A stretch of DNA of 64,000 nt from a virus: positions 62,001 through 126,000 of the IMG/VR virus record IMGVR_UViG_3300042691_026427; one strand, 5' to 3'. Below are positions 46,652 to 64,000 of this stretch, piece by piece (the first letter of the stretch is position 1; each line of letters opens with the position of its first letter). Under the pieces are notes generated by a model, which saw only the letters and a list, made by a program, of their open reading frames with translations, was not told where the DNA came from and ran no database searches. The translations under genes were made by a program, and so were the position numbers.

Positions 46652-47062
46652 TTATGTCAGGTCAGCAATCATAAACTCTTCATCGAAATATTGACGAACA
46701 TCTGGAACCATTCCTTGACTTGTGTCAAATTGCCATTGCCCAATGACTTCTAGTATTTGATTGTAAATTGTCGAGTTGTCTGTGTATCTTACAAAATATG
46801 GATCATTGCCGTATAACAGATCAGCATCGTCCAAATAGTCAATAGGATCGCCACCAAAGTATTCCGATAACCAACGAGCGTAGCATATGCCTACCATGTA
46901 GCTTTTTGCAGGATAGATCCATCCGATATCTTTTTCAGTAAAATATCTTACAGCATTATTTGTTATGTCATCAGACAGCACAATTTCTTTGGTATTGAGA
47001 TCGTCATCAAACACTTGATTGATCCGATGATAAACTTCTTGTCGTATTTTCCATTCTTTCAT
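46652..47062 (-). CDS. Unknown protein at the end of the radical SAM operon
   Basis: 136 residues, acidic and aromatic-rich (DIGWIYPAKSYMVGICYARWLSEYFGG, DADLLYGNDPYFVRY). No metal motif or known domain was recognised. It overlaps the 3' end of the radical SAM gene at 47007-47972 by 56 nt, an unusually long overlap, so the true start may lie slightly downstream. It is the last gene of the operon. Its position suggests a partner or substrate-binding adaptor for the neighbouring enzymes, but nothing in the sequence proves this. Confidence 0.6.
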   Translation of the reverse strand: MKEWKIRQEVYHRINQVFDDDLNTKEIVLSDDITNNAVRYFTEKDIGWIYPAKSYMVGICYARWLSEYFGGDPIDYLDDADLLYGNDPYFVRYTDNSTIYNQILEVIGQWQFDTSQGMVPDVRQYFDEEFMIADLT

Positions 47063-47972
47063 TTTTGTACCAGTTTATTAAATTGTAATAACCATTACAA
47101 CTATTGTCAAGATCCTTAACATACCTATAGTGCTCAGTTAAGCACCCGCCAAAGTAATCACAAGTGCGGCAAACATCACTGACATTAGCTTGTTTTTCTT
47201 TCTTAGTCCATTTAATGTAGTCATCAAATGAATCAAGTCCTAGAAAGTATTCTCTATCGTTAAGATCAAATTCAAGAACACCAAAGTTACCATTAGGAGT
47301 TATATAAACATGATCATCACTGAATGCATTTCGTTGCTTGTTTATCACATCTTCTATATAGTATTCATTAATAAATTCAAACTGTTTAGGTATTGAAGAT
47401 GCTATCCATTTTTTAACAAATTTTTCGTAATCAGCATGGCTAACATTGTAGCAGTTGGCCTGATTAATACTATAAGGTTTTATCTCAACACTTTCGACAC
47501 TTGAACATAAATTCATAGATTCAATTAACTCATCTACATTCATTTTCAATACTTCAGGACTTGCCAATACTAACACTGCAATAGGCACAGGACTCATTAA
47601 CATATTTTGATAAACTCGATCATGCTTTTCACGAGCTGACCAATCGTAACTAACACTTAGATAAAAGTCATCTTCGTAAAATCCCTCATGTAACATTGAA
47701 AAATTAGTAATAACATTAATCTTTCCTTGATAATGTTTACGAATAACATCACGCATTGCATAGAAGTAATCTTTTTTTAGAGCACCAATTTCACCGCCAT
47801 ATAAATCTATATGGCCTATCTCAGGTATTTGAGCCAATAGGCTATCTAACTTATCTAAGTCTATTTTATTAGTATCGGCAAGTTGCTGTTCAGTAAGATA
47901 ACAGAAGTCACATCTAAAATTACAAAAATAACTAGGATTGATCGAAACGGTAATAGGCTTATTCATGTTCAT
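47007..47972 (-). CDS. Radical SAM enzyme with SPASM-like C-terminus (rSAM 1)
   Basis: 321 residues. The [4Fe-4S]/SAM motif is C17-x3-C21-x2-C24 (FCNFRCDFC), followed by the GGE element in LYGGEIGALKK. The C-terminal part has CRTCDYFGGC and a later Cys (SCNGYY), fitting a shortened SPASM auxiliary-cluster domain. SPASM enzymes modify peptides or proteins. It overlaps rSAM 2 by 14 nt. It is small for the class (typically 350-450), so only one auxiliary cluster may be bound. Substrate unknown; a phage protein made in the same operon is the leading candidate. Confidence 0.88.
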   Translation of the reverse strand: MNMNKPITVSINPSYFCNFRCDFCYLTEQQLADTNKIDLDKLDSLLAQIPEIGHIDLYGGEIGALKKDYFYAMRDVIRKHYQGKINVITNFSMLHEGFYEDDFYLSVSYDWSAREKHDRVYQNMLMSPVPIAVLVLASPEVLKMNVDELIESMNLCSSVESVEIKPYSINQANCYNVSHADYEKFVKKWIASSIPKQFEFINEYYIEDVINKQRNAFSDDHVYITPNGNFGVLEFDLNDREYFLGLDSFDDYIKWTKKEKQANVSDVCRTCDYFGGCLTEHYRYVKDLDNSCNGYYNLINWYKNERMENTTRSLSSDQSSV

Positions 47973-49029
47973 TTACATAAGGTGTAGGATCTACTTTTCC
48001 AGTCAATCCGTTTGCTTCAATTATGAGAGGCGCTAGAGTTTTCATCTTAACACAATGAGCTTCTACCATATTGTGGTCTTTTAGATCTTTGATTGTTTTC
48101 TTGCAACCGTTGCATATTTGAAACATAGGGCAAGTCCAACAGCTCTGTTTTAAACTTTGTAATTCAGGTTGAAACTGTAAGGGAAATACTTTCTCCCCTT
48201 TCATTTCTTCTTCAAAGTTTATATTGTAGATCCGGTCATCACCAAATGCTCCGCAACTGTAATAATCGCCTGTAGGCTGCAAGGTTCTTATACCACTATC
48301 GCACGATCTGTTCTGAGGACAACTTGTGGCATATCCGTTCAAACGATTTACCATTTGTTTTGTGTTAAATTCCCATTCAGTTAACCCTTGTTGCCAAATT
48401 TTTACATATATTTCGTATATGTCAGCTAACATGTATGGTCTACCTTCTTGTCCCATAGTAATATTTTTAAATTTAACTGGAGGGCCACTGCTAAATGCAT
48501 AATTGAGTTTACATTCAACATTCATTTCTTTTGCCAGCTCTACATTCTTAATTGCAAGATGTTGATTCTCTTCTGTAATTACTGTGATAAAATCAGGACG
48601 ATATCCTATGCGCTCTAGCATCATATTGCTGACTGCCCAAAAGTCCTCTTCGCTGAATTCTGTTAGGTCTCCCTTAAGACGGCCGCCGCCATATTGGAAA
48701 CTAGTTGTGACTCCTAGGCGAGGATGCTTAAACAGAGATTCCCACTTGGTAGGATTTTTATAAAATGGCCACAGATTACTTGTAAAACTGATAGTAGCTG
48801 TCGAGCCTATATTGTCTAAGTGTTCAATAAGTTTCCAATAATAATCTGGTGGCATCATTAAGGGGTCGCCGCCATTGACAATTATAGTTCGAGTTTCTGG
48901 AAATCTTTCTAAGAAACGAAAGATATATTCATGATCAAGCTCTGCAGACTTATCTTCAGTAATGTTCGTGCTAGAACAAAATGTGCATTTAAAATTGCAC
49001 CGTTCAGTTGGCTTGATTATTAGATCCAT
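47959..49029 (-). CDS. Radical SAM/SPASM enzyme (rSAM 2)
   Basis: 356 residues. It has C11-x3-C15-x2-C18 (RCNFKCTFC) at the very start, a GGDPLM element, and a full Cys-rich SPASM-type C-terminus: SCPQNRSC, YYSCGAFGDD, SCWTCPMFQICNGC and a last AHC. This matches the peptide-modifying SPASM group (anSME, PqqE and sactipeptide maturase relatives), which use two auxiliary [4Fe-4S] clusters. It overlaps rSAM 3 by 26 nt and rSAM 1 by 14 nt, so the three are translated together. Exact reaction unknown. Confidence 0.9.
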   Translation of the reverse strand: MDLIIKPTERCNFKCTFCSSTNITEDKSAELDHEYIFRFLERFPETRTIIVNGGDPLMMPPDYYWKLIEHLDNIGSTATISFTSNLWPFYKNPTKWESLFKHPRLGVTTSFQYGGGRLKGDLTEFSEEDFWAVSNMMLERIGYRPDFITVITEENQHLAIKNVELAKEMNVECKLNYAFSSGPPVKFKNITMGQEGRPYMLADIYEIYVKIWQQGLTEWEFNTKQMVNRLNGYATSCPQNRSCDSGIRTLQPTGDYYSCGAFGDDRIYNINFEEEMKGEKVFPLQFQPELQSLKQSCWTCPMFQICNGCKKTIKDLKDHNMVEAHCVKMKTLAPLIIEANGLTGKVDPTPYVNEHE

Positions 49030-50674
49030 ATTCTACTATTTCTTCAAAGAGGTTATTATAGATTAACTGCTCGTTTGAATTTATAAATTCTTCGATTATT
49101 TCTAATCTATTTTTTCCATTTATTTTTGTTATATCCTTAGCAGCAGTTTCGTAATTTAGTGTATCTTTTACATCGTTGTATATCTCTTTAAAAGAACTAA
49201 TGTTATTCATAGCGGTCCAACAATATTCAAGAAATGTCCGAACATCTGGTAAAACATCTTTTAAGTTTTTCCAAAGTTTCCTGACTAATGTATCTGATGC
49301 AAAAGACATAATAAACATTTGAATGTTATCTTCTAATGTATAAGAGTTACAACTGGATATAGTTTTAAAATAATTTTTACGATTTTTATAAAGGCCGCTT
49401 GAAATAAAAGAAATTCCTTCTTCTACGGTTTGTGTGAAAACTTCTACTAATTTTATTTTATTTAAAGCACAATAAAGATCATCAGTAATTTCACTATCTG
49501 GTAGAGCCATATAATCATAAAAACAATATTGAATATTATTGTTTTCTAAACTATTGTATATCACTAACAGTTCATCATAAAAATCATCCAATGTTGAACC
49601 CGGCATTGCTCTTATAAATTCCATAAAAGGAGATGATGCTCCAAAATTTTTTTCGCAGTATTCAATTAATTGTATTTTATCTATCTTGTTTAAATCAACA
49701 CGTTTAGAAATCTTCATTGCATTATCACTTAAACTCTGAATACCTATATTAGGAACTATCGATTTTCTCCCGTTTGACGTATCTGTTCCTGTTATTTTGA
49801 AAATCTCATCAATTATCTTAATTTTTTTATCTAGATTTGTTGTTTTAAACAATGAAGAGTTTATAAATGACATTCCCAAGTCATATGCATATTTTAAGAA
49901 AAACAAGTCTCGTTCTAAGAATAATCCAAAGTTTGCATCAACATTATAAATTTGCTTATAACCTAATTTGTGCAGCACATCTATTTCTCTAATTACAATA
50001 TCTTCAGGTTTCTTTAACACCTTAGTTCCAATGCCGCCACCCCATTCACAATATGTACAATGAAATGGGCACCCTCTTGTAGTTTCTATTAATACGTGTG
50101 GAAATATTCCCTCAATATCGGCGTAGTCTTTTATCTTTTTTAAGTAATCGAAATTTTCTTCATATGCACAAACATTGGGAAATTGCCATTCTCGGCATTT
50201 AGTACTTCTTAATTCAAAACTAATATCTTCTATGTTAGGTATTCCGTTATTTTCAAAATAGGAATCTATAAAATCTTGCATGAATAGTTCGCCTGGTTTT
50301 GTTACCTGACAGAAATAATCATACATAGTTTTCTTTTTGAAGATATCTATATCTTTCTGCCCTATTTGCGGACCGCCCAACACATTAACTATATTAGGGT
50401 TAATATTCTTTGCCAATCTTGCAACTTCATCTATGATATCAGTATTCCAAATGTAAGAACTGTATAAAATTATGTCAGCAGTATTAACTTCTTCCCATAT
50501 TTCTTTACAACTTTGATATCTGTTATATTTGAATGGTGGCTCTAACCATTCAACTAAATCTTTGTATTTTCCAAAATTATCATAGTATGATTTCATCCAT
50601 ATCCAAGTCACTGGACTGAATAGCTCAGTGTCAATGCTAGGAGGATTTACAAAAGCTATTTTAATTTTTTTCAT
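49004..50674 (-). CDS. Radical SAM enzyme with putative cobalamin-binding N-terminus (rSAM 3)
   Basis: 556 residues. Residues 1-150 form a Rossmann-like domain (IKIAFVNPP; ADIILYSSYIW; NIVNVLGGPQIG) as in B12-binding radical SAM enzymes. The radical SAM motif is C202-x3-C206-x2-C209 (GCPFHCTYC) followed by EWGGG. The usual B12-ligating DxHxxG motif is absent, as in many members of this class that bind cobalamin without it. Such enzymes methylate unactivated carbon or phosphorus or rearrange rings. The C-terminal 180 residues are helical and unassigned. Without a B12 supply gene here, host cobalamin would be needed. Substrate unknown; it is the only member of this subclass in the operon. Confidence 0.82.
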   Translation of the reverse strand: MKKIKIAFVNPPSIDTELFSPVTWIWMKSYYDNFGKYKDLVEWLEPPFKYNRYQSCKEIWEEVNTADIILYSSYIWNTDIIDEVARLAKNINPNIVNVLGGPQIGQKDIDIFKKKTMYDYFCQVTKPGELFMQDFIDSYFENNGIPNIEDISFELRSTKCREWQFPNVCAYEENFDYLKKIKDYADIEGIFPHVLIETTRGCPFHCTYCEWGGGIGTKVLKKPEDIVIREIDVLHKLGYKQIYNVDANFGLFLERDLFFLKYAYDLGMSFINSSLFKTTNLDKKIKIIDEIFKITGTDTSNGRKSIVPNIGIQSLSDNAMKISKRVDLNKIDKIQLIEYCEKNFGASSPFMEFIRAMPGSTLDDFYDELLVIYNSLENNNIQYCFYDYMALPDSEITDDLYCALNKIKLVEVFTQTVEEGISFISSGLYKNRKNYFKTISSCNSYTLEDNIQMFIMSFASDTLVRKLWKNLKDVLPDVRTFLEYCWTAMNNISSFKEIYNDVKDTLNYETAAKDITKINGKNRLEIIEEFINSNEQLIYNNLFEEIVEYGSNNQAN

Positions 50675-51723
50675 TAGTTATATTTTAACACATTTTCTTC
50701 GTCGAGTCTATTAAAAAATTCTCTAAACAGACATTCGTCATTGCGTTCCAATTTTGCCCAATCAGCTTGCACAAAACATCTAAATGAGCAACGATCAAAC
50801 CATTTACATCCCAAGCATTTGTTGCGTTCAAGATGCGCTTCTATAATATTGCTGTTAGAAGAAAAATTAACCGGAGTTAGAAAATCTTCAGGCTCTGTCT
50901 TTACATAACGACAAGTTACTTCTCTACCTGACGGAAGTATAGTAGTCTTGTTCATCGAATAACAAGTCATCTTATTACGACTGTTTTCCAATAGATCTTT
51001 TACGGGATAAATGTTGGGATAATTCTTGGCAATATACATCATACAATCCAACATTTCCTGTTCACTAGGCATCATCTTATCTGCAGACAATTCTGGAACA
51101 TAATAATCAAAATACAATGTATATTTTTTATACAGTGTATCTATAAAAAATTTGTCTTGGTTGCGTAATATCTTTCTAATAGCCGGAGCAGTGAGTACAA
51201 ATCCAATAACAGTGATCCAATCTCCAAATATTTTTAAGTTATTTTCAAATTGTAATGATCTGTTTAAATTAAAACCTCTGCCTGCAAAGTCATAAGATGT
51301 CGAGATATATGCATTATTTCCCACAGCTCGCATACGAGTTATTAAGTCAATTACACGTTGACTCTTGTTGAATATCAAATTAGTTACCCAATTAAATCTA
51401 ACAATCTTGTTGTTGAGGTTAACCCAATCATTTATTTTTGAATAGAATTCCCAATAAGATTCAAATGTGTTATCTGGCACTAGATCATTAAAAATCTCTC
51501 CACCCATGACGTTTACAATATGGGAATCCTTATCAGATGCCGTCATGAAATCTATAACTTGCTGAGCCTTATCAACAATACTGTTAAGTTCCATTCCTTC
51601 TGTAGAATCGTGATCTTGTCCGCAAAATGCACAACTTAGATTGCAAAATTCAAATAGATGCAACTCGATTTCAGATGAATCGGGTACCTTATCTCTTAAT
51701 ACATGTTTTAGAAAATCACTCAT
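50674..51723 (-). CDS. Radical SAM/SPASM-like enzyme (rSAM 4)
   Basis: 349 residues. The radical SAM motif is C27-x3-C31-x2-C34 (FCNLSCAFCGQDHD), followed by VMGGEIF. The C-terminal Cys group is CLGCKWFDRCSFRC plus a later Cys (ECLF), fitting a SPASM-like or Twitch domain. It shares a base with the rSAM 3 start and overlaps the small upstream gene by 8 nt. It is more similar in layout to rSAM 1 than to the two paired modules. Likely modifies a peptide or protein. Confidence 0.87.
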   Translation of the reverse strand: MSDFLKHVLRDKVPDSSEIELHLFEFCNLSCAFCGQDHDSTEGMELNSIVDKAQQVIDFMTASDKDSHIVNVMGGEIFNDLVPDNTFESYWEFYSKINDWVNLNNKIVRFNWVTNLIFNKSQRVIDLITRMRAVGNNAYISTSYDFAGRGFNLNRSLQFENNLKIFGDWITVIGFVLTAPAIRKILRNQDKFFIDTLYKKYTLYFDYYVPELSADKMMPSEQEMLDCMMYIAKNYPNIYPVKDLLENSRNKMTCYSMNKTTILPSGREVTCRYVKTEPEDFLTPVNFSSNSNIIEAHLERNKCLGCKWFDRCSFRCFVQADWAKLERNDECLFREFFNRLDEENVLKYN

Positions 51724-52129
51724 ATATATGTTCCTGTGTCACGTTGTCTATATTAAAATCTTTTGATAATTCAAAACAATATTTAGGCGACGTCTTAACA
51801 TGGACCACTGCCAGTTTAAATTCATTCGACCATTTCTCTTCTTTATTCATAGACGACGTTAATATTTTAAACAACTCCTCCATAGAAGTTATTCCTAGTT
51901 CTTCTGTTAGATATAGAATATTATTATCTATTAATCTAAATTCCATTGTTAACGGATAGTAGTATCGACAATTGTACTCGTATATTACAATAACAGATAC
52001 AGGAAACAAGGCTTTCTTAAAATATGAATACTCTGTTACTGCTTTGGCATTATCTATAGCAGTAATAGTGCATGATATTTCTATGTCTGTATTTTTTCTA
52101 ATAAACACATCATCTGTAGATTGTAACAT
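51716..52129 (-). CDS. Small unknown protein next to rSAM 4
   Basis: 137 residues, acidic, beta-rich N-terminus (DIEISCTITAIDNAKAV) and a C-terminus with helices. No metal motif. It sits between rSAM 4 and the 310-residue module protein, overlapping rSAM 4 by 8 nt and sharing one base with the other. In RiPP operons such small proteins are often recognition elements or leader-binding partners; that role is only suggested by position here. Confidence 0.6.
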   Translation of the reverse strand: MLQSTDDVFIRKNTDIEISCTITAIDNAKAVTEYSYFKKALFPVSVIVIYEYNCRYYYPLTMEFRLIDNNILYLTEELGITSMEELFKILTSSMNKEEKWSNEFKLAVVHVKTSPKYCFELSKDFNIDNVTQEHIYE

Positions 52130-53061
52130 TATCTCACCTCAAACATTTTATATATAGCGTTTGGATTATCACTGTGTTTATATGCCCAATAGACTTTGCT
52201 CACAAACGTGCAGATTGCATTTTTGCCCAACGAATCTGATAGATAGGTAATCCTACAATCATTGCCTAGATCTCTATATAGTAGTTCTTCATATTGTTCT
52301 GCATATATAAGAGAAACAGGTTCTAAATAACTATCAACGCCAGCAGCATCTCTGTGAGCTATTGCATGATTATTAAATATTTTGATCATTTCTTTATAGT
52401 CAGGGAACAGTTTTCTTAATGCATGTTCGACATTAACATTGTTATGGTCAAAATCATAACCTAATATAAAATACCAGTCATTGTGATCTAGCATTTTTTT
52501 CGGAATATCAGAAAGTCGACTGGTTGAAAATTCTAAATCAGTTCCTGTAATATAATGAGCATTAAAAATGTCTCTCTTCATATCAGTTGCATACATTTGA
52601 AGTTCTTGAGATAACAATGACCAACAACAGAATTTAACGTATTCTAATAGTTTAGTTTTTCCCAAACCGCTTAATAGAAAGTTTGGTAATAAAAACTCGT
52701 AACCTAAATTGTCAATTGACAATTCTTCTAGACAAGAAATCTTATTATAATCTGTTTGGAAGATATCAACATATTTTTCTAAATTACTTTTTTCGTTATT
52801 CAAAGATAAATTTAAGAAGTATAACTCAAACAAATTGGTTAAGTTTTCTTTGCTGTTATCTTTTAATATATTTGAAAAAAAATCTCTAAAAATAGTTACA
52901 AACTGTTCTTCACTGCAATTAATCTTTATACTCTTTTCTTGGAATAATAATGTTTGCCAAAAAGCATCACTATTCTTTCCCAAAAGGTTGTCAGCAGATA
53001 TTGTTGAATCATAATCAGATTTACAACGTGTTAACCAAACATTGTTGAATAATCTTATCAT
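52129..53061 (-). CDS. Radical SAM-associated unknown, family A (module A copy)
   Basis: 310 residues. It is a diverged paralogue of the protein at 58911-59963: both start with M-x-x-L-F and share FLLPNFLLSG / YLLPDYLYHGE and EELLYRDLGNDC / EGLLHRDINRNF motifs near the C-terminus. Each lies directly after its module's radical SAM pair. No catalytic motif or metal site is visible. It could be a substrate-binding or scaffolding partner of the radical SAM pair. It overlaps the gene before it by 4 nt (ATGA). Confidence 0.7.
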   Translation of the reverse strand: MIRLFNNVWLTRCKSDYDSTISADNLLGKNSDAFWQTLLFQEKSIKINCSEEQFVTIFRDFFSNILKDNSKENLTNLFELYFLNLSLNNEKSNLEKYVDIFQTDYNKISCLEELSIDNLGYEFLLPNFLLSGLGKTKLLEYVKFCCWSLLSQELQMYATDMKRDIFNAHYITGTDLEFSTSRLSDIPKKMLDHNDWYFILGYDFDHNNVNVEHALRKLFPDYKEMIKIFNNHAIAHRDAAGVDSYLEPVSLIYAEQYEELLYRDLGNDCRITYLSDSLGKNAICTFVSKVYWAYKHSDNPNAIYKMFEVR

Positions 53062-53801
53062 AATTTACAAACTTCAGACAATAAAATATCTTTTGCCCAT
53101 CTAATAGGAATATGTTTAGATACATCTCTATTAGATGCAATAACTAGTGAGTTATCATGAGCCAATAAGCATTCTTCTACAGTACGATCTGACATAGTTA
53201 ATGTGCCAATATCTTTTTCAAAACTTAATGCTGCTACTAAATTTGCGTAATTGAATAGTTTATATAAGTTTTCTCCATATATATTTTCTACATACTGTTT
53301 TATTTCTAGGAAGTTTATGGGCACAGCTAGAGTATGTGTATCTCTTAGCATATCGTATCCCATTAATAACTGATCACTAGTAAATCTTATCAATGATCCC
53401 ATAAAGAAATATGTAGTGTTCTGTTCAATTGACTTCACGGGCTTATCTATTTCAAGGAGTGCAATATCGAACTGAGACGCACTGGTCATCCACTTTAAAT
53501 ATCCTTGGTCAATAATTTCGTATACTGCACTATCAGACCTAGATTTATTACGACTGTCTAGAGTACTGTGACGAATTTTACAATAAGATACCCAGTCTGA
53601 TCTAGAATAGCGTAATCCAGTAGCTAGTTGACCAAAATAAACAGACAACATTCCACTTATCGACAAGTGTCCTGGCTCATAATTTCTATCACCTAATGTA
53701 AATCTATAAAATCCTGGAAAGAAATCCCCAGAAGATAAAATTACCTTTGCAAATTCTTCGTCTGTAATATCTCTAGCTAGATATATTAAATCAATTGCCA
53801 T
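53058..53801 (-). CDS. Unknown protein of module A
   Basis: 247 residues, mostly helical and aromatic-rich (PGHLSISGMLSVYFGQLATGL, TYFFMGSLIRFTSDQLLMGYD). No Cys-rich segment and no domain I recognise. It occupies in module A the place that the CHxx-tailed protein holds in module B (directly before the family A gene), but no sequence similarity between the two is visible. It overlaps rSAM 5 by 11 nt and the family A gene by 4 nt. Confidence 0.65.
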   Translation of the reverse strand: MAIDLIYLARDITDEEFAKVILSSGDFFPGFYRFTLGDRNYEPGHLSISGMLSVYFGQLATGLRYSRSDWVSYCKIRHSTLDSRNKSRSDSAVYEIIDQGYLKWMTSASQFDIALLEIDKPVKSIEQNTTYFFMGSLIRFTSDQLLMGYDMLRDTHTLAVPINFLEIKQYVENIYGENLYKLFNYANLVAALSFEKDIGTLTMSDRTVEECLLAHDNSLVIASNRDVSKHIPIRWAKDILLSEVCKL

Positions 53802-54894
53802 ACGGAAGTGTACCCATTGCGTTTACTACTTCAAGGGCATTCTTTGCAACTAGACAATCTTTTACATTATGAACATCCATTAGATGCAAAATACCACGAT
53901 CAACACACGATCCTAAGAAAGGGCAGTCACCACATTCAGTCTTATCTCCGACATTAGAATACTGTGCTAATTGAACTGTCTGTTCAAAATTTTCAAAGTC
54001 TGTAGCGTGATGATTAGGTGTTGGAATTTTTAAGTCATCAATAAAACTAGCATATCGTTCATACAGTAATGGTGAGTAATAAAATTCTCCATTCTTCCAA
54101 TTGTATTGTTTTTCAACTAGCGAATCAGATAGTCGTCCAAACGAAAATCTTAGATAGTTATTTTTTTCATTAGTTACTACAGAATCATTAAACATTTTTT
54201 TAATTCGTTCTGCTGAATTAAAAAATTCTTCTGTAGTTAATTTCTCGTCTTTTCTTCCAAAAGAAAAATTAAAATCAATTGTGGTTTCGAATAAATGATT
54301 TACTCTCTTGTGTAGGTAATCATAATTTTTTAAGAGATCAGATATTTTAGTATTATCATAGTCGTAAACGTTCATAATGCCAAATGATCTTAGCTTTGTA
54401 GGCCAGTTCATCAATCGAATTACTTCTTCTTGATTTTTCTTAATTGTTTCTAAGTATTTGTCATTTTCTATCTGTTCAGGTTCGATAATGACATTGATTT
54501 CTAATTCGAGATTTGAATAATGATCTCTCAACACATCGGCAATTAAACTGGCCTTGCTGATGTCTAAGTAAGTTGTTTGAAAAGATAATCTTTTAAATTT
54601 ATTGAATATCTCTATAATTCTCTTGTCTGTTAGTAATGCATATGCATTTTTTGCTGAAAGGAAATCAGTAGGGCCAACAAATGCAATGAACGGACTGTAA
54701 TAATTGCCAGTGTTAAATGAATTTAAAACATTTTTTAAATCTTCATAGTGTGCATCTGTAAGAGGTTCTGCACCTTCTTTGTTTACATGACATCCTTTGC
54801 AATTCCACTGACAGCCATTTAATAATTCAAAATTTAAATTAAAATAAAATGTATAGGAATCATTTAAATTACCAGAAGCAAGATAGGCATCCAT
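53791..54894 (-). CDS. Radical SAM enzyme (rSAM 5, module A)
   Basis: 367 residues. C28-x3-C32-x2-C35 (GCQWNCKGCHVNKEGAEPL). The next strand has FVGPTDF, where many radical SAM enzymes have GGE; the paralogue rSAM 7 has LLPTDI at the same place. The C-terminal Cys group CGDCPFLGSC and a later KDC are SPASM/Twitch-like. Together with rSAM 6 it forms the module A pair, equivalent to rSAM 7 and 8. Loss of the canonical GGE in both rSAM 5 and rSAM 7 marks a separate subfamily. Confidence 0.85.
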   Translation of the reverse strand: MDAYLASGNLNDSYTFYFNLNFELLNGCQWNCKGCHVNKEGAEPLTDAHYEDLKNVLNSFNTGNYYSPFIAFVGPTDFLSAKNAYALLTDKRIIEIFNKFKRLSFQTTYLDISKASLIADVLRDHYSNLELEINVIIEPEQIENDKYLETIKKNQEEVIRLMNWPTKLRSFGIMNVYDYDNTKISDLLKNYDYLHKRVNHLFETTIDFNFSFGRKDEKLTTEEFFNSAERIKKMFNDSVVTNEKNNYLRFSFGRLSDSLVEKQYNWKNGEFYYSPLLYERYASFIDDLKIPTPNHHATDFENFEQTVQLAQYSNVGDKTECGDCPFLGSCVDRGILHLMDVHNVKDCLVAKNALEVVNAMGTLPYGN

Positions 54895-55614
54895 TTATTC
54901 TACTCCAAATACTTCTTCCGGATTTAGCGGAATTTCTTTGTTTATCATTTGATACAATAAGGGAACAAACATATTTAAATCATTATTATAGTAGTCAAAT
55001 AACGATTTTCCCTTAAACATGTGTGCTTCAAATTGTTGAGTAAAATACGTTAAACTTAAAGGTCTGTCTACTGAAAAGTATATTTCTAAAAAGCCTGGCA
55101 AACTAAAAAGATTAACAACATTTAATCCAACATAATGGGGATCATCAATATTTTCAAAGTTCTCTTTAACATTAAGTTCTGCGTTTAAGTCTTCAAAACT
55201 TTTAATTAGAAACAACATAGTAGAATCAATAAAATGAATCCAACGACCTACTAAACTTTCATTCTTAGTAATAAATTCTTCACACTCTTCTTTGGATAGC
55301 AAGCTCTTTCCATAATTTGCATCAGGATAAATGGCTTGTAAGATAATTTGAGCCGCAGCAACATTCAGATATGCAATGTTCGAAACACTGTTCCCCCCAA
55401 AATAAGCTTCAATTAATTCAAACTTTTGTTCTTTGGTTACTGACTCATTTAGAACCAAGTCAGAAGGAATATCTAAATTTGAGAGGTATACTAACAGTAC
55501 TTTTCCTTGAATTTTTGACTGTTGGTAATCTACCATAAAGAATGTATTTTTATCTTTAAAGTACTCTTTGATTTGATCAATTGGTATTGGTGCAATCGTC
55601 TGAACGTAATTCAT
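54895..55614 (-). CDS. Unknown protein between the module A radical SAM genes
   Basis: 239 residues, hydrophobic-rich helices (FIDSTMLFLIKSFEDLN, IYFSVDRPLSLTYFTQQFE) but no clear transmembrane span or known motif. It has no counterpart in module B. It overlaps rSAM 6 by 38 nt and directly abuts the rSAM 5 start. A partner role (delivery of substrate or cofactor to the pair) is plausible only from gene order. Confidence 0.6.
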   Translation of the reverse strand: MNYVQTIAPIPIDQIKEYFKDKNTFFMVDYQQSKIQGKVLLVYLSNLDIPSDLVLNESVTKEQKFELIEAYFGGNSVSNIAYLNVAAAQIILQAIYPDANYGKSLLSKEECEEFITKNESLVGRWIHFIDSTMLFLIKSFEDLNAELNVKENFENIDDPHYVGLNVVNLFSLPGFLEIYFSVDRPLSLTYFTQQFEAHMFKGKSLFDYYNNDLNMFVPLLYQMINKEIPLNPEEVFGVE

Positions 55615-56728: not shown

Positions 56729-57597
56729 AACTTCGGCTTGCTTGCCACAATAAAATAATAGTTAAGTTTATTGTTTTTATGATTTTCTATAAAATATTCT
56801 TCAATGCCACTTTTAAGTTCCCACTGAGATCTCAATTCCCAATAAGGTACCAAATCTTTAGTTCTATCTTCAGTAAAAATTAAGTTTAAGCCTGAGTTAA
56901 CTATTGCAGTTTCGTATTCATTAATACCATGCATGGTAGATGCGTAATGATCGTTAATAGGTTCAATAAATTCATTAAAATTATTAGTGTCTAGATTGTC
57001 GTTAAAACACCAAGTGGCAATTACAAAGCGGCCACCGGGTTCTAAAACTCTGTATACTTCCTTAAACAACATGTCAAGTTCTAATGCATATTGAGTAACT
57101 TCGCAGCAATATGCATGACTAAAAGTAGCATCAGCATAGGGAATACTTAGAAAATTAGCCTGTCTAACTTCTGCTCTATCTTGTAAATTTCTTTTTTCTA
57201 TTTCGTCTTTACAAAAATTAGTTTGATACTCAGTTAAATTTACACCATCGACTTTGACATTTGAAAACTTTTCTATAATCCTAAACATGGTGCCTCCGCG
57301 TCCGCAGCCCAAGTCAATGACTCGTTGTGGTGTACCAAATAGTTTATCAAACTGTAAAAATGTTATTAAGTGACTAGTCAGTTTGTTTTCTTGTCGTTGG
57401 ACTTCTGCTGTAATTTCTTCTGTAGTTGCAGTAGTAGCATCTATTTCAGTAGGGCCTAAGCCAAAGTGATGATGAACAAAACCATCAACTGCTTGTAGCA
57501 AGTTTCTATCATTCTTTTTATTGTTATAATAATCAAATACCGCAGTACTAAGCGTGTTTTGAGTTTGGGTATGATCGTTGTTAAATTTTGTATACAT
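56725..57597 (-). CDS. Class I SAM-dependent methyltransferase
   Basis: 290 residues. Motif I VIDLGCGRGG lies at residues 93-102, acidic motif II follows in VDGVNLTEYQ, motif III in FSHAYCCEV, and VLEPGGRFVIATW is the post-III strand. The pattern resembles small-molecule C/O-methyltransferases of the Coq5/UbiE and sarcosine-methyltransferase group. The first 90 residues are an extra helical domain. Lying between the two paired radical SAM modules and next to a 2OG oxygenase, it may methylate the same modified product. No specific substrate can be read from sequence. Confidence 0.85.
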   Translation of the reverse strand: MYTKFNNDHTQTQNTLSTAVFDYYNNKKNDRNLLQAVDGFVHHHFGLGPTEIDATTATTEEITAEVQRQENKLTSHLITFLQFDKLFGTPQRVIDLGCGRGGTMFRIIEKFSNVKVDGVNLTEYQTNFCKDEIEKRNLQDRAEVRQANFLSIPYADATFSHAYCCEVTQYALELDMLFKEVYRVLEPGGRFVIATWCFNDNLDTNNFNEFIEPINDHYASTMHGINEYETAIVNSGLNLIFTEDRTKDLVPYWELRSQWELKSGIEEYFIENHKNNKLNYYFIVASKPKL

Positions 57598-58218
57598 TTA
57601 AATTTCCAGTAGTGCTTTTGCGTCTGTTGCAAAAGAATATCGTGTGCCAATAAAAGGTTTTGCCCTATGCCAAACATCCGACGCCATTACTATCATAGTA
57701 TACGGGATAGGAGCATATTTGTAAACCGGATTTAAATTTTCAGGCAACCAAACATGTGATAACGGGTTTTCTTTTAAATCTTCATAGAATTCAAAACATC
57801 CGTTATCCATTCCAATAGTATCATCTTGTTTGATATATAATACTGTGGTCACGTCACCGATTTCATCTGCTCTTAAAAAAGGTTGCCAGTGACGATGTAT
57901 ACGTTGGCCTTGCCAACTGTTAGGAGTGTTGAGCCATGAATCCTTGTCTAGATAATAGTTCTGGCCTTTGCCAGCAAATCTAGGATGCACCGTATCTAGA
58001 AAATCAAAAATAATGCTGTCTATTACAGCTTCAAACATCTTCACTTCTGGTGTATTTGTTTCCCAGACGTTTAATTTGTTTTTTTCATCATCGGGTCCCA
58101 AAAAATACATTTGCGTATTGTCAATTAACGAATTACAAAATGGTTCTATAAGTTCTTTGTAATCATTTAAATCATATATCATTGCATTAAAGTTAGGAAC
58201 TTTAAATTTGTTTGTCAA
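57598..58218 (-). CDS. Putative 2OG-Fe(II) oxygenase next to the methyltransferase
   Basis: 206 residues. HRHWQPFLRADE (H108, H110), then YTMIVMASDVWHRAKPFIGTRYSF with H184 and R193, is the layout of a small 2OG-type dioxygenase, with TTVLYIKQDD as the strand between. The acidic metal ligand is not certain (Asp or Glu around 118-122). It overlaps the 229-residue unknown by 4 nt and abuts the methyltransferase start. A tailoring role in the same pathway is inferred. Confidence 0.7.
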   Translation of the reverse strand: MTNKFKVPNFNAMIYDLNDYKELIEPFCNSLIDNTQMYFLGPDDEKNKLNVWETNTPEVKMFEAVIDSIIFDFLDTVHPRFAGKGQNYYLDKDSWLNTPNSWQGQRIHRHWQPFLRADEIGDVTTVLYIKQDDTIGMDNGCFEFYEDLKENPLSHVWLPENLNPVYKYAPIPYTMIVMASDVWHRAKPFIGTRYSFATDAKALLEI

Positions 58219-58904
58219 TTTTGAACCTCATCAAATACAGTAGATTTCATCAAGGGGTCGGCAGGATAGTAATATAACTTTAACTTCAATGGTTGATAGG
58301 TAGTTGCGTTATATGTCAAACCAAACACCTTCATAAAAGTAGTGTCTTTGCAAAATTCTTTAACAGATTCGATGAACGGAATTGGAAGATTATAAAAATT
58401 TGCAACTGTTTCAACATTTTGATGCATAAAATATAAATCTTTCTTTTCGGGATTAACGCTGATACCTTGTCCCCAGTGACTTAATATTTGACTTCCTGCA
58501 ACTATCATCGGCTGTGTATGTTTCCACAGATCTAAATCATAAAATTTTGGAACCTGTTGTTTGCTATCTAAAAAATAATTGATACAATAATCGTCATGTG
58601 GTCTAACGATATTAATGTTAAATTTGTTGCAATCGATCCTTCCTCCGGAATATACAGCCATGAACTTGTGTTCGGTATAGTTTATACCATCTGCAGGTTG
58701 GAAACTAAATTGTTGCAATTTTTCTAAGTTCACACCTTCATTAAAGATAGAACCCATAACATCAATATAGGCGAACAAATAATCGTCTGGAACTTTTTTA
58801 GAATTAAACAAGTTCTCTTCTACTTTGTTACCTACGATTGTTATCTCTTCGGCATGTTGATTTATTTCTTTGCTTATTTCTTTAAAAAAGTCAATACTAT
58901 TCAT
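58215..58904 (-). CDS. Unknown protein between methyltransferase/oxygenase and module B
   Basis: 229 residues, mixed alpha/beta, with FMAVYSGGRIDCNKFNINIV and a tyrosine-rich end (LKLKLYYYPADP). No metal or nucleotide motif. It overlaps the 2OG-type gene by 4 nt and lies 6 nt after module B. Unique in the window. No function can be assigned. Confidence 0.6.
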   Translation of the reverse strand: MNSIDFFKEISKEINQHAEEITIVGNKVEENLFNSKKVPDDYLFAYIDVMGSIFNEGVNLEKLQQFSFQPADGINYTEHKFMAVYSGGRIDCNKFNINIVRPHDDYCINYFLDSKQQVPKFYDLDLWKHTQPMIVAGSQILSHWGQGISVNPEKKDLYFMHQNVETVANFYNLPIPFIESVKEFCKDTTFMKVFGLTYNATTYQPLKLKLYYYPADPLMKSTVFDEVQN

Positions 58905-58910
58905 AGTACA

Positions 58911-59963
58911 TTAGTAAAGTCTAAATGGAGCCAAATCTGCTGTTAAATTTTGTCTCTTTTTTCTATAGCAATAAGTTGAAAATATTTGATTAGATTTTTC
59001 TCTAAATAATTCAAATGTATAAAGACACCCAAAGTTTCTATTGATGTCTCGATGTAGTAATCCTTCCCAATCTTCAGCCATAAGCATTTGGTTTACTTCA
59101 AACATATCTTCATTACCTGTATGATCGGGCACCCATATTCTTTCTAAGGAATGCCATTGATTAACAAGATTGTTGTAATCATAGTTAGAAGTAATGTAGG
59201 AAGGTTCTGCTGAGAAATTCTCATCAACCATCCAATTTAACGTTGAGCTGTTTTTCAATTGGTCTTCGACGTTACCTATTTCAAAGTTGCTGTCAGGGTC
59301 TATTACACCCATGTCTAAGAATCCAAACATCGTTTCTAATCTTAGTTGCTCCAACTCATCTCGCCAGTTGTCAATACTAATGATTCTAACACGGTCTAGT
59401 ATTTCTTCTTTGCATAGACTTTCTTCACCATGATATAGATAGTCGGGCAAAAGATATTCGAACGAAACATCCTGTTTATTAATGACATTTCTTAAAAAAT
59501 TAGAAACTGGTTGAGCATCGTATATAACTTTGAATTCTTCGAATGATTTCATCTTAAAAGTATCTCTTACCATTTGATGTCGCGTATCGGGTGCATTAAC
59601 TTGTATATAGGATCTTACTCGCACACTTTCAACCATTGATTTATACAGGAGGTAAACATCTTGCTCTGAAGCATATTGAAATATACTTTTTGCATATTGT
59701 ATTAACAATCTCTCAGTAACATCGGTTTTTAAATAGGCGATAAGTTTGTGATCAGCTTCGTACATATATTGCCAAAATTGTTCAACATCGTTTTCAAAAT
59801 TGTTTGCCAATAACTCGTCAAATGTGCCAACTGACGGCAGTATACAAATATCTGTTGGCATTGGAAAGAGATTGTATAAATCGGTTGCCATTAACATTTT
59901 GTAACCAATACTGTCGAATTTATAATCAAATTCTAAATAAGCTCTTTTAAATAAGTGAAACAT
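58911..59963 (-). CDS. Radical SAM-associated unknown, family A (module B copy)
   Basis: 350 residues from MFHLFKRAYL. This start, one base after the stop of the CHxx-tailed gene in a TAATG junction, is preferred over an upstream ATG that reads the other gene's tail in another frame; the paralogue at 52129-53061 starts the same way (MIRLFNNVWL). Shared motifs are YLLPDYLYHGE and EGLLHRDINRNF. The strict coupling to the CHxx-tailed gene suggests that the two proteins act together, for example as substrate chaperone (inference). No known domain. Confidence 0.72.
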   Translation of the reverse strand: MFHLFKRAYLEFDYKFDSIGYKMLMATDLYNLFPMPTDICILPSVGTFDELLANNFENDVEQFWQYMYEADHKLIAYLKTDVTERLLIQYAKSIFQYASEQDVYLLYKSMVESVRVRSYIQVNAPDTRHQMVRDTFKMKSFEEFKVIYDAQPVSNFLRNVINKQDVSFEYLLPDYLYHGEESLCKEEILDRVRIISIDNWRDELEQLRLETMFGFLDMGVIDPDSNFEIGNVEDQLKNSSTLNWMVDENFSAEPSYITSNYDYNNLVNQWHSLERIWVPDHTGNEDMFEVNQMLMAEDWEGLLHRDINRNFGCLYTFELFREKSNQIFSTYCYRKKRQNLTADLAPFRLY

Positions 59964-60625
59964 TATCTTCTTCCTCTTGATCCGTGGCAATTATTATGGC
60001 ACGATGAATGACACACACGTAAATCAACTGTTCCTATTGAACCTCTTAGTGCAGTAACTGCGGCAGCTAAATTAGTATAAAAATTGTTGATATTGGCTGC
60101 AGAAATAGTAGCATTTGTACTTGGTTCAGATGATACGAACCCTACAGATTGCAAATAATTATTATTAAGATGGGCTTGGCCATAAGTTAATAAAACTGTT
60201 CCGGAGAAAAAGGGGATGTTTGCATTGTCTGACGGTACGCCAGTTTGAGTATATTGACCGTTAAAATATTGAGTATAATAAAGGCCCCAAACAGCTGGAC
60301 GTAATCTAGTAGTAGCATTGGCAAATGCTTTGCACATATTAACAATTAAACTGGCGTTTATTGTCAAACCGGATGCTCCTGAACCAGGTAGATTAGAAGT
60401 CGTTGGATATGCGTATGTATTCGTACCTAACTCACTTAACCTTGCAGAGAGGTATGCTCCTGTCCAGCCGATAACAGTACCGTTGTCCCACATTCTAACG
60501 TTAATTACTGGAACGTTGTAGTAGTGTATGCTTCCACTAGGGTCCATTCGCGAGGTATTCATCACTGTTGCAATAAAGTCATTAACTACGCTGGCTTTGG
60601 TTATAACTTGTCCTGTAGATGCCAT
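59963..60625 (-). CDS. Candidate radical SAM substrate protein with C-H-x-x repeat tail
   Basis: 220 residues. Residues 1-200 form a Thr/Asn/Ala-rich globular domain (INVRMWDNGTVIGWTGAYLS; GLYYTQYFNGQYTQTGVP) of no family I can name. The last 16 residues read CHSSCHNNCHGSRGRR: Cys-His pairs at 205, 209 and 213, every four residues, then an Arg-rich end. Dense Cys tails at the C-terminus of a long leader-like protein next to SPASM enzymes are typical RiPP cores that receive thioether links, or can bind metal. The gene has the best Shine-Dalgarno in the operon (AAAGGA) and an ATTAAATA motif upstream, so strong expression is expected. It is flanked by family A and rSAM 7. Confidence 0.75.
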   Translation of the reverse strand: MASTGQVITKASVVNDFIATVMNTSRMDPSGSIHYYNVPVINVRMWDNGTVIGWTGAYLSARLSELGTNTYAYPTTSNLPGSGASGLTINASLIVNMCKAFANATTRLRPAVWGLYYTQYFNGQYTQTGVPSDNANIPFFSGTVLLTYGQAHLNNNYLQSVGFVSSEPSTNATISAANINNFYTNLAAAVTALRGSIGTVDLRVCHSSCHNNCHGSRGRR

Positions 60626-60638: not shown

Positions 60639-61640
60639 TTATTTAATATCCAAAAAACAACCCATGTTAAAATCTCTTGCTATAGGAAAATACCCTTTTC
60701 CCATGCAGTGGGTTAAATTTTTACAATTGACACATTTGTCTAGTATCACGTTATTTATATCATCTATACTGCTGTAAGTTTTAATAAAACCTTCGTAATT
60801 TGGAGTCAGCACTCTAAATCGAGGATTATCTATAAAAACGTATTCATCAAAAGGAATAATAGGAGTTAAAAAAATATCACCCGGTGACCCTAAAAAAGTA
60901 AATGCAGGTTTTCGCAACAGTGTTCTGTCGTTGTATTGTTTTGTTGCATTCTCTGTACCTAAATAATGATCAGTTATGTCATGTATGGTTCTAATGCTTT
61001 CTTGCAACATGTTTGTTTTTTTCTCCAAACTTATATCTGGATTATACAAAAATGTAAAATTTAGTTCAATTATCTCATCATCGGATAAAAAATCTAACAT
61101 TTGGTTTAGTTTAACTTTTTCCTTATCGGACAATGTAAATCCGGTATTGATTGCCAAGTTGATTATAACATCATCGCCGTATGTTTCTTTAATCTTTGCA
61201 ATTCTAGATTTTATTGTTATTTGATAGTTTATGTCAAACAGTTTTGCTATCAATAGATTGACCTGCAATTCAATTTTGGCCAATGGATTATTGTTTTTTA
61301 CAATTTTAAAAAATTCTGGATCAAACCCTGTTTCTAACGTAGATGCCACACCCACATACTCAAACAATGAAACTGTTTCTGCAAATTCTGCATTTTCAAA
61401 CAGTTTGTAATTGTCCTTGTTATCAAATATATCAGTTGGCAATAGATAACAAGTTTCCAATTCATAACCGTTTTTCAACAAGTCTTTGGCCAACGATAAC
61501 GAAGATGTAAAATCGTTGTAATTATTTTTAGTTCTGTTGTAAAAACATCCCCGGCAATCCATGGAACAGTCATTCAATACCAGCATTCTAAATTCTGCCA
61601 GTTTGTATGGGTCACCATATCTTTCGTAGGAATTATACAT
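60639..61640 (-). CDS. Radical SAM enzyme (rSAM 7, module B)
   Basis: 333 residues. C25-x3-C29-x2-C32 (DCSMDCRGCFYNRTKN); the second strand is YLLPTDIF with PTD in the place of GGE, as in rSAM 5. The C-terminal Cys group is KCVNCKNLTHCMGKG followed by a final Cys (GCFLDIK). It lies 13 nt upstream of the CHxx-tailed gene and overlaps rSAM 8 by 8 nt, so it is the enzyme physically closest to the candidate substrate in the operon. Confidence 0.86.
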   Translation of the reverse strand: MYNSYERYGDPYKLAEFRMLVLNDCSMDCRGCFYNRTKNNYNDFTSSLSLAKDLLKNGYELETCYLLPTDIFDNKDNYKLFENAEFAETVSLFEYVGVASTLETGFDPEFFKIVKNNNPLAKIELQVNLLIAKLFDINYQITIKSRIAKIKETYGDDVIINLAINTGFTLSDKEKVKLNQMLDFLSDDEIIELNFTFLYNPDISLEKKTNMLQESIRTIHDITDHYLGTENATKQYNDRTLLRKPAFTFLGSPGDIFLTPIIPFDEYVFIDNPRFRVLTPNYEGFIKTYSSIDDINNVILDKCVNCKNLTHCMGKGYFPIARDFNMGCFLDIK

Positions 61641-62688
61641 GATGTACAGCCTTGATAGGAATTGTAATTCTCTTTGGCTTTGCCAATGCTTTCATCAAAC
61701 TTTTCGGTGCTCCGCATATATCGTCCTGCCATTCTAGTTGATGACAATCGCTGTTGCAGTATTCAAATACTTCGCAAGTATAACATCTAGGATCCCTAGC
61801 TCTTTCGCAAGAAATGTTTTCTAATCTCTGGGGACTTGTTAACAAAGAGGCAATGTCATCATCAATGTGGCCAAATTGATGTTCTGGGGCGCTATTGGGG
61901 CAACCAGATATAGTTCCATCAGCATTTAGGGTAAACAGCTTTTCTTCACAGTCCCTGCAAAATGTAGCGCCATTGGTAAGTCCAATTTCAAATTTAGCAT
62001 AGATGCTTTCCATAAATTCGTTACTGAACCATGACCTTGCGTCATGCTCTACTATCTGATGGTGCATCTTTAAAAACCACTGATCTTGTTCTAAGTTTGT
62101 GGGAAATATATGCAAATTTTCTCTTGCGCTGCCGTTCATAGTGAGACGCTCAAGTGCTAGATCAGTAACGCCTAAATCTCTTATCCATTCCAGCAGATCA
62201 ATAGGTTCCATGGCAACGGTGCCTCGGGTAACACTGACAAACAGTTTGACCTCAACTCCTAGATCAATTAGGGTCTGCAGATTCTTTCGCCATAAGTCGT
62301 ATTGTTTAGGACTGGCAAATCTTATGTCTGGATCCCAGCTAGTTCCTATGCGGCCTCCCAATGGCCCCATGATAAAATCAATCTTGTCCTGTGTTAACTT
62401 ATAAGTTAAGTTGGTAGTGACACCCCAGCTGCGACTAGCCCATAATTCCTGGCATTGATCATACACATACTGCATCGATGATATATCTGCTAAAAAGGGT
62501 TCGCCGCCGTGAAACTCTAAATGTACATGGGGCGCACTAGCTGTTTCAACATGTAGACGTTTAAGCCAATCGGCAACCTTTACATGATCCCAATATATCT
62601 TTGCGCCTTTGCTGCCGCTAGTAAAACAGTGCAGGCAATTGAGATTACAGGTTTCTGTAGTCTTGAGGTAAATCATTAATTCTTTCAT
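61633..62688 (-). CDS. Radical SAM/SPASM enzyme (rSAM 8, module B)
   Basis: 351 residues. C14-x3-C18-x2-C21 (TCNLNCLHCF), FHGGEPFLA, then a full SPASM set: FCRDCEEKLFTLNADGTISG with GCPNS, RCYTCEVFEYCNSDC and a final DICG. It is the closest paralogue of rSAM 6 (GTSWDPDIRFAS vs GVSWDADIRFGS). SPASM enzymes install thioethers, carbon-carbon links or formylglycine in peptides. First gene of module B, 8 nt after the cupin-like gene; no Shine-Dalgarno. Confidence 0.9.
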   Translation of the reverse strand: MKELMIYLKTTETCNLNCLHCFTSGSKGAKIYWDHVKVADWLKRLHVETASAPHVHLEFHGGEPFLADISSMQYVYDQCQELWASRSWGVTTNLTYKLTQDKIDFIMGPLGGRIGTSWDPDIRFASPKQYDLWRKNLQTLIDLGVEVKLFVSVTRGTVAMEPIDLLEWIRDLGVTDLALERLTMNGSARENLHIFPTNLEQDQWFLKMHHQIVEHDARSWFSNEFMESIYAKFEIGLTNGATFCRDCEEKLFTLNADGTISGCPNSAPEHQFGHIDDDIASLLTSPQRLENISCERARDPRCYTCEVFEYCNSDCHQLEWQDDICGAPKSLMKALAKPKRITIPIKAVHHV

Positions 62689-62696
62689 CAGAATAT

Positions 62697-63167
62697 TTAA
62701 TAGCCTACGCTAAGGGCCCAAGTATTTTGTACACTGCTGACTCGATGTAGATAGCCCCGTGGTATTATCACATGCTGACCCGGATGCAATACAACCTTTT
62801 TATTTCGAATGTAAACTGTCTTTCGACCCTTTATTACATGCAGTAATACATTTACATCGTCTTTGTGCCAATCAAAACTGTAGCCAAATTTTTGATTGAC
62901 AAATAGGTGTATGTTTTTAAAATTTATCTTGTTAAAACAAGAACTGACAGCGTGATCTGTTTCAAGGCCTTCAACTTTTATCACAGGATAGGATTTATGC
63001 TGTTCTATCCATTGAGAAAAAGTAAAAAAATCTTTAACTATGCAATCACTGTGTTTATAGTCAGGGTGACCTATAACTTTTATTAAACCCTGTTCATACT
63101 TGGAATAATCTAACAGCTGATCGGCCAGTAATTTACTTACTGTCTTGGTCAGGCAGTGGTCCGCCAT
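62697..63167 (-). CDS. Cupin/JmjC-like Fe(II) oxygenase
   Basis: 156 residues. The C-terminal half has FDWHKDD (H101, D103 or D104), a KGRKTVYIRNKKVVLHPGQ strand pair, and IPRGYLHRV with H141, the metal triad layout of small JmjC/cupin_4 hydroxylases. LHPGQ and IPRGYLH are strong cupin markers. It is shorter than ribosomal oxygenases. Its start overlaps the right-edge gene by 35 nt. As first enzyme before module B it may hydroxylate the same protein target; this is inferred from order only. Confidence 0.75.
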   Translation of the reverse strand: MADHCLTKTVSKLLADQLLDYSKYEQGLIKVIGHPDYKHSDCIVKDFFTFSQWIEQHKSYPVIKVEGLETDHAVSSCFNKINFKNIHLFVNQKFGYSFDWHKDDVNVLLHVIKGRKTVYIRNKKVVLHPGQHVIIPRGYLHRVSSVQNTWALSVGY

Positions 63168-64000
63168 ATTTAGAGCCTCTTATCTTTTTGCCTTTGATAT
63201 AATTGCCCTGGCCGTCTGTATGGCCCTTGCCCTTGCTTTGATGTGCTCTTAACCCTTGACTGACGCAACTGCTGTGATCGCTGCTGCCCAATCGTTTGCT
63301 ACTGCGGCAAAGGTCGGGATCAGTTTTTTCGGATACCGATTGATCTTCTGCCATAGCTGGCTGAGTATCGGAGTAGGCTGAAAATGCCTGCAATGCTTTG
63401 GGATTTTGTTTTAGCCATTGTTCAAACCGTTGAGCATTCATATTGGCAAAAATACCAGTACCTAGTACCCCAGGACTCGGCGGTCTTCCACCTAACTTTA
63501 ACGCAAGTTCATGCGCTTCTTTGTCTCGTAGAATGTTTGCTTGATATTCTCTTTGATTGGCTTTGTCTTTCCAATCCATATAACTAGTCCACGAAGAGCC
63601 GGCTGGCGATCCTTTTCGTAAGTCAGCAGTAGCTGCTGGTCCAAACGCCTCCTCCACACCTTTCTTTTGCAAATAGAAATAGGAACTGACTAAATCACTA
63701 GGAAAGTCTTCATCGTAATTAAACAAGTGTCCTGCTTTCTTACGGCCCATGTCACGGACAACATGCTCCCATGCGGCATTTAATACATCATCTTCAGACG
63801 TCAAATCTGGATATTGACTGAACACTTTTGATGCAATGTTTTCATTGTAGTAATTGCCAAAGTTCTCTCCAACAAGATCGCCCTGACTGGCAGGGCGTTT
63901 CATTGAACCTTTGAGGTGCCCAGCAGGGCCTAGTTTGTTTTTATCGCTGCCCGCAAAGGCTGATGTGGGCATGAAAGCTTCGGTGACAAGTTCGTGTATT
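63133..64000 (-). CDS. Unknown protein cut by the right edge (5' end missing)
   Basis: An ATG at 63972 exists, but the frame stays open to base 64000 and adds sensible residues (IHELVTEAFMPTSAF), so the start lies just beyond the window. HELVTEA resembles the MRAKEFLSEA start of another protein here. About 289 residues are visible. The C-terminus (SSKRLGSSDHSSCVSQGLR, then KIRGSKYGGPLPD) is a basic, Gly-rich motif that I recall in T4-like aquatic phage proteins. The middle is helical and charged. Possibly a virion or packaged protein; function unknown. Confidence 0.65.
   Translation of the reverse strand, partial: IHELVTEAFMPTSAFAGSDKNKLGPAGHLKGSMKRPASQGDLVGENFGNYYNENIASKVFSQYPDLTSEDDVLNAAWEHVVRDMGRKKAGHLFNYDEDFPSDLVSSYFYLQKKGVEEAFGPAATADLRKGSPAGSSWTSYMDWKDKANQREYQANILRDKEAHELALKLGGRPPSPGVLGTGIFANMNAQRFEQWLKQNPKALQAFSAYSDTQPAMAEDQSVSEKTDPDLCRSSKRLGSSDHSSCVSQGLRAHQSKGKGHTDGQGNYIKGKKIRGSKYGGPLPDQDSK

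Follow-up and report, generated by a model that had tools for sequence, protein, structure and literature searches.

Why would a bacterial virus carry eight radical S-adenosylmethionine (SAM) enzymes in a row, and on what do they act? The question is raised by a 64,000-nucleotide stretch of viral DNA (the window), bases 62,001-126,000 of the 149,248-base IMG/VR virus record IMGVR_UViG_3300042691_026427, in which 19 genes follow one another on the minus strand from position 63,167 down to 46,652, with overlaps of up to 56 bp and gaps of at most 13 bp. An earlier note on the window had located eight CX3CX2C proteins here, encoded head-to-tail with overlapping ends, and had suggested a RiPP-like (ribosomally synthesized and post-translationally modified peptide) or virion-modification pathway extending from 46652 to 64000. 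We found all eight proteins at those positions on the minus strand, in genes that overlap or touch, and the start at 46652 holds while the end of the module moves to 63167. The suggested pathway fits our results best and can now be supplied with a candidate substrate, a gene order that is conserved in complete isolate genomes and a tail-fibre context, although the modification itself is deduced. We consider it likely that the module carries out RiPP-like maturation, by a phage-encoded pathway, of the C-terminal tail of a virion protein, probably one of the tail-fibre tip. Conserved sets of three to eight radical SAM enzymes adjoin a fibre-linked tagged protein in many large phages, and many large bacterial viruses probably put an unusual, chemically modified tip on part of their own particle.

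The candidate substrate is a 220-residue protein, TAG (59963..60625; this and all other module genes are on the minus strand), which the earlier note had left among its unknowns. It has a variable body and a C-terminal CHSSCHNNCHGSRGRR-stop, the end of the gene reading ...VCHSSCHNNCHGSRGRR-stop, and its last 16 residues (59966..60013) are the proposed modified region. The consensus of this tag, (C-H-x-S)3-R-G-R-R, is almost fixed among proteins of ~130-360 residues whose bodies vary. In Agrobacterium phage Atu_ph07, Sinorhizobium phage Phosso, Burkholderia phage SURPRISE13 and Pseudomonas phage DT01, the gene in this place has the identical type of ending, while the bodies of the five tag proteins anchored in isolate phages are 21-25% identical and mean column identity in the main body family (84 aligned proteins) is 28%. 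The tagged protein of DT01 is PA10_00065, and that of phage FLC6 is gp72. All nine C/H/R positions of the tag are invariant in 66 distinct proteins from loci found through the neighboring enzyme rSAM1 (below). We also scanned IMG/VR at the DNA level with the pattern CHxxCHxxCHxxRxRR and obtained at least 120 matches versus ~0.2 expected by chance (our estimate from base frequencies); among the matches listed, 140 of the 141 in frame end exactly at a stop codon. The Ser at position 4 of each unit, which is semi-conserved, and the Gly ahead of RR are conserved although neither was part of the search pattern. The tag codons vary freely (TGT/TGC and CAT/CAC are used about equally, and all six Arg codons occur), implying that selection acts on the peptide, and a DNA-level constraint was thereby ruled out. 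When phages were queried by tblastn, neither the tag peptide alone nor two full tagged proteins of metagenomic phages gave any match, probably owing to low-complexity masking and divergent bodies; the DNA pattern succeeded instead.

To see whether the tag and the enzymes travel together, we used rSAM1 (61633..62688) as the sole query against IMG/VR, leaving the tag out of the search. This radical SAM/SPASM maturase (TIGR04085, 32.1 bits) is a core member of the module and usually lies directly before the tag gene. In the best 80 of its 361 relatives, 75 loci have the tag gene on the same strand, immediately or shortly downstream of rSAM1, and the five remaining contigs break off 0-293 bp past rSAM1. 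In the reverse direction, 39 tag loci have 6 kb or more of downstream sequence, and every one of them has a same-strand rSAM-like open reading frame (ORF) within 6 kb, as compared with 0 matches to the same rSAM-like expression in 115 kb of the rest of the window's contig. Moreover, of 50,697 phage records, the 7 that contain rSAM1 are precisely those that contain rSAM7 and rSAM8, so the homologues are not scattered through unrelated contexts; such scattering would have spoken against the earlier note. An invariant C-terminal peptide so strictly accompanied by SPASM enzymes and a JmjC-type oxygenase is best understood as the substrate of these enzymes. In its invariance and its co-occurrence with the enzymes, the tag also agrees with what is expected of a RiPP precursor, a conserved core encoded beside its maturases.

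The gene order is conserved as well. CUP - rSAM1 - TAG - U239 - (U359) - rSAM5 - ... - rSAM7 - rSAM8 - U136 recurs across unrelated phages, in isolates of Agrobacterium, Sinorhizobium, Burkholderia and Pseudomonas and in many metagenomic phages, where the earlier note had proposed to look for it. In 57 loci the sequence continues for 9 kb past rSAM1; of these, 49 have rSAM8 (47007..47972) and 56 have rSAM7 (47959..49029), a core SPASM enzyme that is better conserved than any other module protein and is 58-65% identical in isolate phages. The conserved partner U239 (54895..55614) is present in 72 of the 84 loci, usually as the gene that follows TAG; its AlphaFold2 model is confident (predicted local distance difference test, pLDDT, 89), but a fold search with it gave no PDB match, and U239 could therefore not be called a recognition element. 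Five window genes are rare or unique across the loci: a SAM-dependent methyltransferase (56725..57597; Methyltransf_11, E 7e-16), a 2-oxoglutarate (2OG)-Fe(II) oxygenase (57598..58218; phrog_81, E 7e-9), U247 (53058..53801), rSAM2 (60639..61640), these four being lineage-specific, and U310 (52129..53061), which has no relatives among the fetched loci. Their rarity indicates that the window module is an enlarged version of a module of three to six enzymes. Inside the module of Burkholderia phages (SURPRISE13, L015, 17375-21149) lie two genes annotated as dihydrofolate reductase, which may be tag-acting reductases rather than folate enzymes.

What kind of enzymes are these? We assembled a family for each of the eight from related phages. 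The CX3CX2C cysteines are kept in 100% of the members of all eight families, and an auxiliary CX2CX5C...C set is kept in 99-100% of the members of seven, the B12-type protein having no such set; most other cysteines of these families are not conserved. The earlier note's seven proteins with C-terminal Cys groups are thus borne out, and the SPASM profile TIGR04085 exceeds its curated cut-off in three of them, rSAM7, rSAM1 and rSAM3 (55577..56728; 28.7 bits), a SPASM paralogue of rSAM1 (E 6e-37), the remaining ones having the cysteines but lower scores. The radical SAM profile PF04055 matches seven of the eight proteins (E 3.7e-9 to 1.3e-3; the same seven in a search of the 149,248-base record), with one or two above its curated cut-off depending on the search. 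The eighth, rSAM2, has no profile match and was assigned from its motif and a CX2CX5C auxiliary site, with all of these cysteines at 100% in a five-member family. Across the 89 homologues of rSAM1, core and auxiliary cysteines are all at 100%, the exceptions being Cys 79 and Cys 294. rSAM5 (50674..51723), a radical SAM protein with SPASM-type cysteines that are 99-100% conserved, aligns with rSAM1 at 98.9% in hhalign and is common in the module (66 of 84 loci by BLAST, where cross-matches among the radical SAM proteins are possible). rSAM4 (53791..54894) carries the auxiliary CX2CX5C...C set, and rSAM8, a core enzyme with a short auxiliary domain, matches phrog_1802 (E 2.7e-37). The putative B12-binding N-terminus seen by the earlier note belongs to the protein at 49004..50674, which matches PF02310 below its cut-off (E 3.3e-5) and the KedN5-family B12 radical SAM profile NF033712 at E 3.5e-29; its 101.5 bits versus a subfamily cut-off of 700 make it related in kind only to the KedN5-like methylases. 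The predicted methyltransferase and two Fe(II)-type oxygenases are likewise present, the second oxygenase being CUP (62697..63167), a cupin/JmjC-type protein and the first gene of the module (Cupin_2, E 1.5e-7). Its H101-x-D103...H141 Fe(II) triad is present in 100% of 82 homologues, and its Atu_ph07 homologue exceeds the cut-off of JmjC_2 (YcfD-type, E 2.8e-8).

From these data we suggest the following pathway. TAG would be the substrate, acted on at its (CHxS)3-RGRR tail by the JmjC-type oxygenase and the SPASM core (rSAM1, rSAM5, rSAM7 and rSAM8) with U239 as their partner. The SPASM enzymes would most likely introduce a cross-link within each CHxS unit, either a Cys thioether or a C-C bond that joins His to the beta-carbon of Ser, and hydroxylation of His or Arg would fall to the oxygenase; these bond types are a guess by analogy with known SPASM chemistry. 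In the window phage, the B12 radical SAM protein, the methyltransferase, the 2OG oxygenase and the further radical SAM enzymes may decorate the tail with methyl or hydroxyl groups. The tail would stay attached, and TAG would be built into the virion, its likeliest place being the tail-fibre tip or close to it, where a rigid and chemically unusual end could contact the host surface.

The placement in the virion is suggested by the surroundings of the module. In the window its neighbors are tail-fibre genes on one side and, on the other, the gene for a 952-residue virion structural protein (phrog_5838, E 2e-257). Of 116 non-redundant tag loci, 86 encode a tail-fibre-type protein just upstream, on the same strand in 132 of 132; it shares a C-terminal domain of ~115 residues that matches tail-fibre PHROGs, and its gene ends at the tag gene or just ahead of CUP-rSAM1. 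In Atu_ph07, the virion proteins detected by mass spectrometry (MS) cluster at coding sequences (CDS) 170-215 (PMC6102473). The tagged protein is gp170, the first of these, and the numbering agrees with that of the portal gp198, the prohead core protein gp204 and the baseplate protein gp181, so that the paper indirectly places the tagged protein in the virion. In pelagimyophages, radical SAM cassettes are described within the host-recognition (tail-fibre) cluster (PMC7029224). A second family of tag proteins, of 124-140 residues (loci L018, L042, L178, L224 and others), usually comes as a tandem pair immediately behind a fibre-like gene of great length; the two largest body families have no detectable homology to each other (hhalign, 23%).

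Several points weigh against maturation of a fibre-tip protein. The modification of the tag is itself something we infer, as is its role in adsorption, and eight radical SAM enzymes are many for one 16-residue tail, so that some may act on other proteins. No fibre-domain protein was detected in the window contig, nor in the loci of the Burkholderia and Pseudomonas phages, and we place gp170 among the MS-detected proteins from the boundary of the cluster. The AlphaFold2 model of TAG, computed from an alignment of window and metagenomic sequences only, averages a pLDDT of 75, the tail being of low confidence; its body is probably folded, but searches by sequence and by fold found no PDB match, leaving a fibre or adhesin fold unsupported. 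NCBIfam also gave no match, and Foldseek returned only phage hypothetical proteins, one of them an Atu_ph07 protein equal in length to gp170.

Could the tagged C-terminus instead be modified and then cleaved off during infection, as an antibacterial or signaling peptide for host shut-off or the exclusion of competitors? A precursor with SPASM maturases and decorating enzymes is the standard RiPP layout, and the best profile matches of the module enzymes are the peptide maturases PapB, YhhB and DynA. However, no protease, transporter or immunity gene was recognized among the module proteins, and no Pfam family for leader removal, export, transport or peptidase function was found among the 19, several of which have no known function. 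The body of 130-360 residues with its partly confident predicted fold is not a short leader, the module is surrounded by virion and fibre genes, and gp170 opens the MS virion cluster of Atu_ph07. Since no transporter or protease is recognized, the body is large and the neighbors are fibre genes, a finished virion protein is likelier than a released peptide, and we regard a diffusible product as unlikely.

The CHxS repeats could also bind metal. The three Cys-His pairs would then hold Fe, Zn or an Fe-S cluster at the tip, and the radical SAM enzymes would modify the fibre protein, a surface glycan or something else. The invariant residues of the tag include classic ligands, and Cys/His clusters at the spike tips of other phages bind metal. 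On the other hand, metal binding needs neither the invariant Arg nor the semi-conserved Ser, and the tag and the enzymes occur together in every testable locus, which favors the enzyme-substrate relation and makes a metal or cofactor tip improbable.

Earlier papers have given such genes metabolic roles. The six radical SAM genes of DT01 were assigned to DNA repair and metabolism (PMC8541153), a metabolic benefit was suggested for those of CP220 (PMC2853527), and 261 viral 'ahbD' heme genes in Baltic viruses were reported as auxiliary metabolic genes (PMC9301287), although the latter could be mis-named SPASM maturases of the kind in the window. By this account the module would alter heme synthesis, DNA repair or cofactors of the host, but no module protein scored high enough to pass as an equivalog of any metabolic radical SAM enzyme in NCBIfam, and the strict linkage to a tagged phage protein and fibre genes is left unexplained; we consider it very unlikely. 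A chimeric or contaminating bacterial segment, suggested by a module G+C of 33% vs 39-41% for most of the contig, can practically be dismissed, because complete isolate phage genomes carry the same module in the same place and order and the 84,980 species genomes of bacteria and archaea yielded only ~20 genuine tag loci, mostly in metagenome bins. The low G+C may be a sign of module exchange between phages. In some of the GTDB bins (L201, L148, L167, L157), assigned to relatives of Bdellovibrio/Bacteriovorax and to Rickettsiales, the tag genes adjoin radical SAM genes; these contigs, some of 219-382 kb, are either misbinned large phages or real chromosomal copies.

How does this module compare with known systems? 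HxsA carries C-terminal HxS repeats. The Hxs system (TIGR03977-03979, HxsA/B/C/D) resembles the module in its repeat-tailed substrate, its two or more radical SAM maturases and weak HxsB and HxsC profile matches, but it is bacterial, whereas the phage unit is a Cys-containing four-residue CHxS with a fixed RGRR end, and the module falls outside it by score (30.6 versus 370 for HxsB, 30.6 versus 267.9 for HxsC), with TAG matching no NCBIfam profile. The cyclophane- and thioether-forming SPASM enzymes YhhB, PapB and DynA and the sulfatase maturase are the best full-length profile matches and have the same cysteine layout, but the phage enzymes reach roughly 10-15% of the curated cut-offs and the known substrates are mostly short peptides. 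CUP shares the HxD...H triad with the YcfD/JmjC ribosomal oxygenases (PF08007), yet it is a small phage protein beside a tagged substrate and not a ribosomal enzyme. The T-even tail-fibre adhesin gp38 is a small protein encoded just downstream of the long fibre gene; TAG is likewise small and next to a fibre-type gene, but it has no sequence or fold match and it has a fixed Cys-His tag and maturases.

The earlier note knew of no phage system of this density, and this does not hold: the Campylobacter phage CP220 encodes 11 radical SAM proteins, with five grouped in a single module, and CPt10 encodes 12 (PMC2853527). Those genes, interpreted there as metabolic, are unmatched by rSAM1, rSAM7 and rSAM8, and 150 kb of CP220 examined has no CH tag. 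The pelagimyophage cassettes inside the tail-fibre region may include a system of the window type, although the portion of that account seen by us gives gene content and proposes no substrate, tag or function (PMC7029224). A broad review of jumbo phages has no mention of radical SAM (PMC7824862). Dense phage radical SAM genes are thus already known, whereas nothing we found describes what they act on or do, the tag, or radical SAM maturation of a phage virion, in a literature search that left preprints and most subscription journals outside, so that prior art is possible.

The other module genes are the unknowns U359 (58911..59990; phrog_36207), U229 (58215..58904) and U137 (51716..52129), the last two lineage-specific, and the conserved last gene U136 (46652..47062; phrog_20737), present in 43 loci. 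As the module spans 46652-63167, the gene at 63133-63972 is probably not a member. Downstream on the minus strand lie genes for an IscU-like Fe-S scaffold specific to this contig (45579..45962; NifU_N, E 5.5e-51), an IscA-type carrier (45275..45634; PF01521, E 4.5e-19) and an ErpA-type carrier (44952..45278; PF01521, E 1.4e-19). The scaffold, a probable source of clusters, and the two A-type carriers would help to load the module's many Fe-S clusters in the window phage. IscU and IscA were found in none of the 84 related loci and so are not part of the general module, close IscU relatives are present in few phage records, and no IscS-type cysteine desulfurase was found in the 149-kb record. 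Between the Fe-S genes and the module, a NUMOD3-motif protein (46214-46591, minus strand) is a possible remnant of a homing endonuclease. Scans for late promoters, sigma-70 promoters and terminators gave results at or near chance. By eye, genes resembling those for heme oxygenase, a small heat-shock protein, DnaK and ClpX lie at about 26.6-30 kb and 38-39 kb of the sequence (G000).

It is possible, if not quite probable, that widespread phages use three to eight radical SAM enzymes of their own to make a multiply cross-linked, hydroxylated, RiPP-like C-terminal claw on a protein of the tail-fibre tip, which would be the first virus-encoded maturation of a virion protein by radical chemistry, for host recognition or attack on the envelope. 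If the proposed maturation is true, viral radical SAM genes filed as metabolic helpers in DNA repair or heme synthesis would gain a testable substrate and function, and a new set of SPASM enzymes with one short, defined substrate would be at hand in the cultivable phages Atu_ph07, FLC6 and DT01. Phages would then finish part of their own particle by radical chemistry, a layer of virion biology that receptor prediction from sequence would miss.

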